Program-made: the position numbers and the translations under genes | NCBI GenBank assembly: GCA_000721275.1 | Contig: JOFO01000045.1 | Span: forward strand, 1-47,795 | Length of the DNA stretch: 47,795 bases | Direction of reading: 5' to 3' | Source of the DNA: Microtetraspora glauca | GTDB lineage: Bacteria; Actinomycetota; Actinomycetes; Streptomycetales; Streptomycetaceae | In this document: positions 44,031 through 47,795 of the stretch, piece by piece | Position numbering within the stretch: the stretch's first letter is position 1 | How the letters are laid out: every line of letters begins with the position of its first letter | The notes under the pieces: generated by a model | The model's database searches: none | What the model saw: the letters and a program-made list of their open reading frames with translations, nothing else | What the model was told of the DNA's origin: nothing

Positions 44031-46946
44031 TTATTCGAGCAGCTCCGCGTACGAGCCCATGGCCAGGGCGATGTCCGCCTGGGCCCAGAACCGGTGGTAG
44101 GTGAAGACGGGGGCGGCGCCGCCCGCCAGGTACGCCTCGATCTTCGGCCAGGCCGGGTCGTCCTGGTAGAAGGAGCGGATCGAGGCGAAGGTGGAGGCGG
44201 AGTTCACCGCGTCGCCGTTCGGCATCACGCCGGTCCAGCCGGTCGGCACGTGCACCGGGTCGTCGAAGCGGCTGTAGTCGGCGCGGGTCTCCTCCACGGC
44301 GATGCCCAGCGGGTCCTGGTGGTGCTCCCACATGCCGTCGAGGAGGGCCTTGGCGACCCGCTTGGCCTCCGCGTGGCCGGACTTGGCCGCGTAGTAGGTG
44401 AGGGTCTTGGCGTAGGCGGCGGCCACACCGACGTCGTTGGTGTAGTCGGCGACGGTGACGTGCAGGCCGGTGTTGGCGCCGGGGTTCGCCGGGTTCCAGG
44501 TGTCCGGGGCGCCGGACCACTGGAGGGTGGACGGGATGCGGAAGGTGCCGTCGGGGTTGACCGTGGTCTTCGACAGCGCCCAGGTGACCCACTTGTCGAG
44601 GACGGTCTTCGCCTCGGCGTTCCCGGTCTGCTGGTAGTACTCGGCGACCCGCTCCATGGACCACGCCTGGAAGCCGAACCACTGGTTCGACGCCGGGTCG
44701 TGGTAGACGGGCTTCTCGTCGTAGTACATGCCGTAGAAGGTGGGGGTGCCGGCCGGCGGGGTGGCGTAGCGGCCCTGCCAGCTGTTGGTGGCGCCGCCCG
44801 CGATGGCGCCCTCGCTGGACTGGAGCCAGCGGTAGAACTCCAGCTGCCGGTCGAGGCTGGTCGCCCAGTCCGCCTGTCCGGTGGCCGACTTGGGCTTGAG
44901 CGGGGCGTACTCGCTGAGCGCGTAGGCCGCGAGCGGGTTCTGGTAGCCGCTGTGGTTGTGGCTGGAGCCGATCCGCCACGACCAGCCGGCCGAGGTGTCG
45001 ACGGCACCGCCCCAGGCGTAGTACCAGGACATCAGGTAGTGCGCGCTGTCCTTGCCGGTGCCGGCCGGGCAGGCCACCGGGCCGACACAGTTCCCGATCT
45101 TCTTGAAGTACTTGTCGAACATGGCGTACCGCAGGTAGTCGCCCATCTTGGCGGCCTTGCCGATGGTGGCGGCGACCTGGGCGCCCTTGCCCTGCTCCTT
45201 GGCCCACAGGTCGGCCCAGTAGGCGGCCTGGACGGCGCGGGCGTCGGCGTCGGGGGCGTTGGTGAACTTCCACTGCTTGGCGTAGGAGGCGTCCCCGGTG
45301 AAGAGGTCGAGGTAGCCGTTCTTCCCGCCGTAGGTGAAGTTGTCGCAGGTCGGATGGGTGACCGTCTCCCAGACGGACTCCTGCGGGCCGCGCTGGAAGG
45401 TGTTGATGTACGAGGGGCCGGCCGCCGCCGGTCCGGCGGAGCACTTCCCGGGCTCGTTGCCGAAGCCGTAGACGTTGTCGACGTCCTGGATCCAGTGCAT
45501 GCCGTAGATGTCGTCGGTGCCGTAGGCGCTCTTCAGCTCGGCCGCGATCGGGTCGGAGCCGGAGGTGACGCCGGAGTCGAGGCGGGCCGGGTACTGCGAG
45601 GGGAGGTCCCACTCGGGGGCGTAGGTGGCCGGCTTCGAGGCGTTGTAGGAGGAGTTCGTGGGCTGGTCGGCGCGGGTGGGGATCATGAACTTCTCCATGG
45701 TGTCCCACGCGCCGTTGAACTTGGTCCAGTCGCCGGTGATCTTGCCGTACATGGCCTGGAGCCAGATCAGGTAGCTGTACGCCTCCGAGGTCGTCTCGTG
45801 CCCGTGGTCGGGGGCCTCGACGATCAGCGTCTCGACCGAGTGGTACGGGATGCCCTCGGGCGAGAAGTAGCCGTTGGCCGGGTTGGTGATCTTCCCGTAC
45901 AGGTCGAGGAAGCGGGCGTCGTACGTGGAGTCCGCGGCGAGCTGCGTAACCTGGACCTCGGCCTTGGCGTGGCCGGGGGCGGTCGCGGCGAAGACGGCGA
46001 CGCCGGTGCCGGTGGCGCCCGCGGAGACGGTCACCTTCTGGGCGGTGTTCCAGTTCGCCGGGGTGAAGGTGAGGGTGGCCGGGGAGGCCGTCAGGTTCGT
46101 GTTGCCCGAGGCGCGGGCCACCGTGACCGTGACGTTCGCCGCCGGGGCCGTGGACAGCTTCAGGTCGAAGGTGCCGGAGGAGCCCTGGCGGACCGCCAGC
46201 TGCCCGGGGGCGGCGACGAGCGCGGGCCCGGCGGCCACGGTGATGCCGACCGGCGCGGACTCGGCGGAGGCGCCCTGGCTGTCGTACGCCTTCGCGTAGA
46301 GCGAGTGGGCGCCGGCCGCGAGACCGGCCGCGCTGTGGGTGAACGGCGCGGTGGTGTCGGTGCCCAGCAGGGTGGTGTCGCTGTAGAACTCGACCTTGTC
46401 GACGGTGGCGCCGTCGGCCGCGGCGGCCGTGGCGGCGAGCGGGACGGCGGTGCCCTCGGTGTAGACGGCGCCCGCGGCGGGGCTGGTGAGGACGGCGACG
46501 GGCGGCTGGTGGGCGCCGGCGCACCGGGTGCCGTTGACGGCGAAGTCCGCCGGCGCGGCGTTGGTTCCGGTGTAGGTGAACTGACCGCCGGTGGTGACGG
46601 CGGCGCCGGGGGCGACGGTGCCGTTCCAGCCGGCGTTGGTGACCGTGACGTTCTTGCCGGACTGGGACCAGACGCCGTTCCAGCCGTTGGTGAGCTTCTG
46701 GTCACCGGTGTGGGAGTAGGTGAGCGTCCAGCCGTTCAGGGCGGCGGTTCCCCGGTTGGTCAGGGTGAGCTCGGCGGTGAAGCCGGAGCCCCAGTCGTTC
46801 GTCTTGTAGTCGACGCTGCACTGCACGGCGGCGGCCTGCGCGGTGGCGGCGCCGGCGCCGGCGGCCAGGAGGCCGAGGGGGAGGGCGAGCGCGGCGGTCA
46901 GCGCGGTCAGGTGCCGGCGCGGACGGCGTGGTCTCAGGCGTGGCAT
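44031..46946 (-). CDS. CBM2-Ig-GH48 cellulase (reducing-end cellobiohydrolase), secreted
   Basis: 971 aa. Domain order: signal peptide (about 1-39); CBM2 cellulose-binding module (40-142, [20 protein letters not shown]); Ig-like Big_9-type module (147-237, [14 protein letters not shown]); a second beta module (240-330); GH48 catalytic domain (about 336-971). [20 protein letters not shown] contains the proposed general acid Glu, and [16 protein letters not shown] is a GH48 hallmark. It processively releases cellobiose from chain reducing ends outside the cell. ATG 46946 is at the end of a 343-bp gap with two CebR-like boxes, so cellobiose-responsive control is likely. Confidence 0.97.
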
Positions 46947-47091: not shown

Positions 47092-47111
47092 CAGTGGGAG
47101 CGCTCCCACTG
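47092..47111. promoter_or_regulatory. CebR-type operator, 20-bp perfect palindrome
   Basis: The core TGGGAGCGCTCCCA (47095-47108) is the known CebR consensus of streptomycetes. Symmetry extends three more bases on each side (CAG/CTG). It is about 146 bp before the GH48 start and 179 bp before the CBM2 gene. Confidence 0.9.
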
Positions 47112-47226: not shown

Positions 47227-47240
47227 TGGGAGCGATTCCA
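47227..47240. promoter_or_regulatory. Second, degenerate CebR-like box
   Basis: TGGGAGCGATTCCA matches the CebR consensus at 12 of 14 positions. It is 50 bp upstream of the CBM2 gene, in a repressing position for that gene. Confidence 0.65.
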
Positions 47241-47289: not shown

Positions 47290-47758
47290 ATGCGCCATCC
47301 CCCACGTCTCACCGCGCTGCTCGCCGGAGCAGCGGTCACGGCGGCGAGCACCGCGCTCGCCGTCGTGGGTACGGCCTCAGGAGCCGCGGCCGCACCCGTC
47401 TGCACCGTGGAGTACTCGGTCACGAACCAGTGGTCCGGAGGCTTCCAGGGTGCCGTCACCGTCACCAACCACAGCACCGCGCTGGACGGCTGGAGCCTCG
47501 GCTTCTCCTTCCCGGCCGGCCAGCGGGTCAGCCAGGGCTGGGGCGGCAGGTGGACGCAGTCCGGCGCCGCCGTCACCGTCGCGAACGAGAGCTGGAACGG
47601 CCGGCTGGACACCGGCGCCAAGGTGACGACGGGCTTCGTCGCCTCCTGGACGGCGGCCAACACCGCCCCCACCGCCTTCACCCTCGGTGGCACGGCCTGC
47701 GACACGGCCGGGCCGACCACCCCGCCCACGACTCCTCCCACCACACCCCCGACGACTC
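47290..47758 (+). CDS. Secreted CBM2-containing cellulase, truncated at the contig end
   Basis: The first 156 codons are present. A signal peptide (about 1-35) is followed by a CBM2 module (PVCTVEYSVTNQWSGGFQG to GGTACD) with its spaced Trp residues and terminal Cys pair. A PTTP-repeat linker follows and is cut off; the catalytic domain is missing. In streptomycetes a CBM2-linker protein beside GH48 is usually a GH6, GH5, GH9 or GH74 enzyme, so the missing part is probably a cellulase. The frame continues in silico into adapter sequence, which must not be translated. CebR-like boxes upstream suggest control with GH48. Confidence 0.88.
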
Positions 47759-47795
47759 CTGTCTCTTATACACATCTGACGCTGCCGACGAAGAG
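47759..47795. other. Illumina Nextera adapter, not genomic DNA
   Basis: From 47759 the sequence is CTGTCTCTTATACACATCT, the transposase mosaic end, followed by GACGCTGCCGACGA, the rest of the Nextera read-1 adapter in reverse complement. The last four bases, AGAG, would start the i5 index and fit index 503 as I recall it. CT at 47759-47760 could also be genomic, so the true end is 47758-47760. Confidence 0.97.

Follow-up and report, generated by a model that had tools for sequence, protein, structure and literature searches.

Features at the end of contig C45

The window (the whole stretch of DNA that was analysed) is the complete contig C45 of 47,795 bases, part of a Streptomyces assembly of 7,474,694 bases in 254 contigs. 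Its last four kilobases carry two divergent cellulase genes, the second of which runs into adapter sequence at the contig end. The features are as follows.

44031–46946, minus strand: CBM2-Big_7-GH48 cellulase, the divergent neighbour; genuine, synteny anchor (Pfam)
47095–47108, no strand: CebR-box palindrome TGGGAGCGCTCCCA, genuine and perfect, in the interval that separates the two divergently oriented cellulase genes (GH48 and GH5)
47290–47757, plus strand: 5' portion (genuine) of the gene for a secreted cellulase, with signal peptide (by eye), CBM2 (PF00553, 4e-28) and the start of a PT linker
47377–47775, minus strand: false ORF with its ATG (MCIRDR...) within the adapter (translation)
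47713–47758, plus strand: PTTP-coding linker repeat, site of the contig break (sequence and translation)
47758–47793, plus strand: false C-terminal extension PVSYTHLTLPTK, of which the first base, 47758, is genomic (translation)
47759–47777, minus strand: 19-base Tn5 mosaic end, the portion of the adapter that adjoins genomic sequence; exact match, AGATGTGTATAAGAGACAG as read on this strand
47778–47791, minus strand: 14-base Nextera i5 (read 1) tail, directly after the mosaic end; exact match, TCGTCGGCAGCGTC as read on this strand
47792–47795, minus strand: start of the reverse-complemented i5 index TATCCTCT, four bases, AGAG on the plus strand

The CebR boxes between both cellulase genes are consistent with control by CebR, judging from the sequence; the consensus is that given in an excerpt of PMC5332605. 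The second copy (47227–47240) has two mismatches; with up to two mismatches allowed, chance alone would give 0.56 matches in the window.

Identity of the terminal 37 bases

When the Nextera i5 adapter with index TATCCTCT is reverse-complemented, its first 37 bases and positions 47759–47795 are equal as strings (37 of 37 identities); the mosaic end accounts for 19 of these bases, the i5 tail for 14 and the index for four. TATCCTCT is index S503 and, among the eight i5 indices S501–S508, it is the only one that starts with AGAG after reverse-complementing. The first-pass annotation had already recognized a reverse-complemented Nextera adapter here, with coordinates that proved exact; its addition that the index bases are included holds for four of the eight. 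The 15-mer GTGTATAAGAGACAG has one exact match in the window, the chance level for this 15-mer with up to three mismatches being a mean of 0.08 matches (100 shuffles).

The same building blocks appear in the excerpts of three published sources: the 33-base part consisting of mosaic end and i5 tail is the Nextera trimming sequence in PMC6460022, the 19-base mosaic end is given as a Tn5 oligo in PMC8460729, and an oligo of the form P5-TATCCTCT-tail, with the letters of index, primer and i5 tail, is present in PMC13400746. The terminal 37 bases are a known kind of technical artefact and have no biological content of their own.

The interrupted cellulase gene and contig C38

Contig C38 has a reading frame that is open from base 2. 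Its first residues, TQPTDPPTTPPTTPPTTPPTPVSGAPEL, are the last part of a PT linker and lead into a GH5 domain (PF00150, 3.8e-30), a domain that is absent from the window; a CBM2-GH6 gene comes next. The cut gene is most likely a CBM2-(PTTP)n-GH5 cellulase that continues in C38, as predicted from the two contig sequences and from the arrangement in related strains. Of the 543 loci found for the neighbouring GH48 gene, 80 were kept. The strand opposite to GH48 carries a CBM2 match in 78 of them, and in 35 of the 80 a CBM2 and a GH5 match next to GH48 are separated by fewer than 250 bases. Most of the remaining loci have CBM2 adjoining GH6 and no GH5, so GH5 does not always accompany GH48. Translation of 24 loci gave a single open frame that includes CBM2, the linker and everything up to the stop codon in 22 cases; the other two run off the contig in the linker. 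GH5 followed by CBM2-GH6, as in C38, is also the order in L024 to L031, which are the closest relatives with contigs across the region. Because the GH5 half in C38 and the gene order match the relatives, we read the end of C45 as an assembly break within the linker. This agrees with the first-pass annotation, which had placed the break inside a PTTP-coding repeat rather than at a biological boundary: the GH5 half is found from base 2 of C38, and the relatives have one gene. A biological gene end at position 47758 was considered and rejected, as the GH5 half sits at the start of C38.

It could be argued that the adapter is contamination while the cellulase is nevertheless truly truncated at its linker, the GH5 half in C38 belonging to another gene. 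The two contig ends indeed do not simply overlap: the longest stretch that they share is 22 bases, at the genomic end of C45 and at positions 20–41 of C38, and the preceding bases differ. Because they differ, we read the 22 bases as another copy of the linker repeat. True truncation is nonetheless very improbable, since C38 opens in frame within a PT linker and proceeds to GH5 and CBM2-GH6, just as these genes are arranged next to GH48 in the closest relatives. Moreover, the five CBM2 domains in the genome search are placed such that no other CBM2 fragment is listed at a contig edge: two are in C45, one is in C38 (in the GH6 gene) and one each lies deep in C2 and C8. A gene divided between two contigs is therefore preferred, and C45 and C38 together would form a cellulose-use gene cluster that is split over two contigs. 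In the first 9400 bases of C38, the GH5 and CBM2-GH6 genes (Pfam) are accompanied by a LacI-family regulator, a sugar ABC transporter and a GH1 enzyme, which were assigned by eye from translations.

In Streptomyces sp. NRRL F-5727 (L023) and S. aureus NRRL B-2808 (L034) the start of the contig also falls in the PT linker of the same cellulase, and these ends lie 81 and 53 bases past the CBM2 match, respectively. No adapter was seen in either contig-end sequence. These two of 80 related contigs hint at a recurrent break in this linker.

Adapter sequences across the assembly

The 13-mer CTGTCTCTTATAC was found at 11 places in the genome, the end of C45 included, and its reversed control gave no match in the same genome. 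At ten of these places the adapter match reaches the contig end exactly and without mismatch, over 16–62 bases, so that ten of 508 contig ends carry adapter. Five places are of the i5 type (C30, C35, C45, C68 and C80) and five of the i7 type (C12, C24, C26, C52 and C69); the place in C94 is too short for typing. All five i5-type places are consistent with the single index TATCCTCT over the four to eight index bases that are reached, and all five i7-type places with the single index TCCTGAGC, presumably N704, over one to eight index bases. At the end of C35 the whole eight-base i5 index and 21 bases of the P5 primer are readable. One i5 and one i7 index at all typable places are the mark of one dual-indexed, untrimmed library. 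The last 100 genomic bases before the adapter have a GC content of 0.68–0.85 at the 11 adapter places, to which this measurement was confined.

These observations also bear on the idea that a natural Tn5/IS50-like transposon has inserted into the cellulase gene and that the terminal bases are its end, which is less probable still than true truncation. In favour of this idea, the ends of Tn5 are the source of the 19-base mosaic end and genes can be interrupted by transposons, but natural Tn5 ends differ from the mosaic end. In addition, the 18 bases past the mosaic end are synthetic, being i5 tail and index; other contigs have i7 tails as well as primer bases of P5 and P7; and the adapter ends together with the contig at ten of 11 places. 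We reject a natural transposon end on account of the synthetic tail and index beyond the mosaic end. A chance resemblance between true genomic sequence and the adapter has a practically negligible probability, as 37 exact bases stand against 0.08 expected matches of a 15-mer with up to three mismatches, and is refuted by how many copies there are and where they lie (11 places in one genome, ten of them at contig ends, and none for the reversed pattern).

The adapter place in C68 is not at a contig end. Here 57 adapter bases (C68:7492–7548) lie inside the contig, in a stretch that codes for a TTAPTTPAPTT-like linker, and separate two HtaA domains on the minus strand (PF04213, 4.9e-41 and 2.5e-29). 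Eight of 21 genomes searched have any HtaA match, and in the relative G004 two such matches are within one open frame of 558 residues. For this reason the two flanks in C68 probably belong together in one gene, with the adapter as a false bridge that breaks the frame. Such an internal case is worse than those at contig ends because the reader gets no contig-end warning.

Spread in other genomes and viral contigs

The exact 19-base core is present in 24 of 392 Streptomyces genomes, the present one included, and the reversed 19-base pattern has no match in any of the 392. The 29 places fetched from other genomes comprise 25 that lie at most 78 bases from a contig end and four that are internal (L108, L109, L126 and L127), three of which adjoin simple repeats as judged by eye, L108 being the one that does not. 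A 5.3 Mb contig of another Streptomyces (G339:C1) has six internal copies of the core; in the one copy that was read (at 1475748, L126) the bases beyond the core differ from the Nextera tail. The 33-mer of mosaic end and i5 tail was found in at least 120 stretches of viral contigs. Among the 80 viral matches listed, 79 are within 150 bases of an end of the stretch and one (L139) is internal.

False peptides

The open frame 47290–47793 on the plus strand passes from the real gene start into the adapter and ends in ...TTPVSYTHLTLPTK; its tail also reads ...PTTPVSYTHLTLPTK. The proline preceding VSY comes from a mixed codon, in which base 47758 is genomic and bases 47759–47760 are adapter. On the minus strand, the ORF 47377–47775 is antisense to the CBM2 domain (47401–47700) and has no Pfam match at E ≤ 0.001. 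Translation thus bears out both peptides of the first-pass annotation, VSYTHLTLPTK appended to the cellulase on the plus strand and MCIRDR at the start of a bogus minus-strand ORF. The frame 47430–47795 (...CLLYTSDAADEE) is without a Pfam match.

That annotation had also proposed a search of protein databases for the two peptides, of which MCIRDR, with six residues, is too short to score. As query for VSYTHLTLPTK we chose the C35 frame with the same tail, which ends in VSYTHLTLPTKRIV, because the PT linker in the frame of the window would swamp a word search. At E ≤ 10 this gave 129 proteins from 653 candidates, a count that is to be read as a sample and not as an estimate because the index residues KRIV of the query favour records with the same index. 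Individual E-values are weak (0.02 to 10). The motif SYTHLTLPT is present in 119 of the best 120 of the 129 matches; among the same 120, it is followed by exactly four residues in 118 and continues with KRIV in 117. The one match among those 120 that lacks it (P0112) aligns to the genuine part of the query. The Pfam domains of the matches listed belong to many different families, and the tail therefore ends many unrelated proteins.

A search with the whole frame of the window returned 89 proteins, among which P0016 alone contains any of the seven artefact strings tested. This CBM2 fragment from a 596-base contig ends in CLLYTSDAADE, which is another frame of the same adapter. Scoring covered the 7996 candidates with the largest numbers of shared words; the truncated protein of the window was not listed among these from the protein collection, and the best row was 84% identical. 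MCIRDR, SYTHLTLPT and LLYTSDAAD were not found in the literature searched, although they may be published elsewhere, and among the titles and abstract openings read from wider searches on adapter contamination, no title concerned these peptides.

We lean towards the view that adapter remnants form a sizeable, index-stamped class of false protein ends in public collections (VSYTHLTLPTK, CLLYTSDAADE, MCIRDR and their i7 counterparts), that inside contigs they mark wrongly bridged gaps in repeat-coding linkers, and that they may be used to find faulty records and to group them by library.

Proposed origin and significance

In tagmentation, Tn5 would have joined the adapter directly to genomic fragments, and where the insert was shorter than the read, the read would run into the opposite adapter. 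If such reads were left untrimmed, the assembler could extend a contig into adapter bases. Should genomic coverage fail across the GC-rich PTTP-coding repeat, untrimmed read-through would be the only remaining path, and the extension into the adapter would die out at varying lengths, upon which the contig stops. The presumed cause of the break is thus that short inserts were read through and that coverage of the repeat failed, while the adapter identity, the indices common to the contigs and the gene halves on two contigs are direct observations. We assign a probability of about 0.985 to the explanation as a whole, namely an untrimmed Nextera i5 adapter from short-insert read-through, a contig stop at the PTTP repeat and a gene that most likely continues in C38. 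No observation spoke against the adapter itself.

The finding matters for data quality only and calls for caution about assemblies and protein databases. An untrimmed tail would be taken as protein, and gene counts would record a short cellulose-binding protein in place of the cellulase and an unknown protein for the antisense ORF 47377–47775. As the same tail is found on unrelated proteins and the same adapter on viral contigs, such short "conserved" peptides can mislead motif searches.

Comparison with known systems

The closest technical counterpart is read-through into the i5 adapter of Nextera (Tn5 tagmentation) libraries. The window agrees with this adapter letter for letter over 37 bases, including the start of a known i5 index, and there is no difference in sequence; the difference is that the adapter was here retained in the assembly rather than trimmed. 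On the biological side, the counterpart is found in close Streptomyces relatives such as S. hydrogenans (L024) and S. filamentosus (L025), which have a CBM2-PT linker-GH5 cellulase next to CBM2-GH48 and CBM2-GH6; domain order, linker type and neighbours agree. In contrast to these relatives, the gene in the present assembly is most likely divided between C45 and C38 and carries a false tail.
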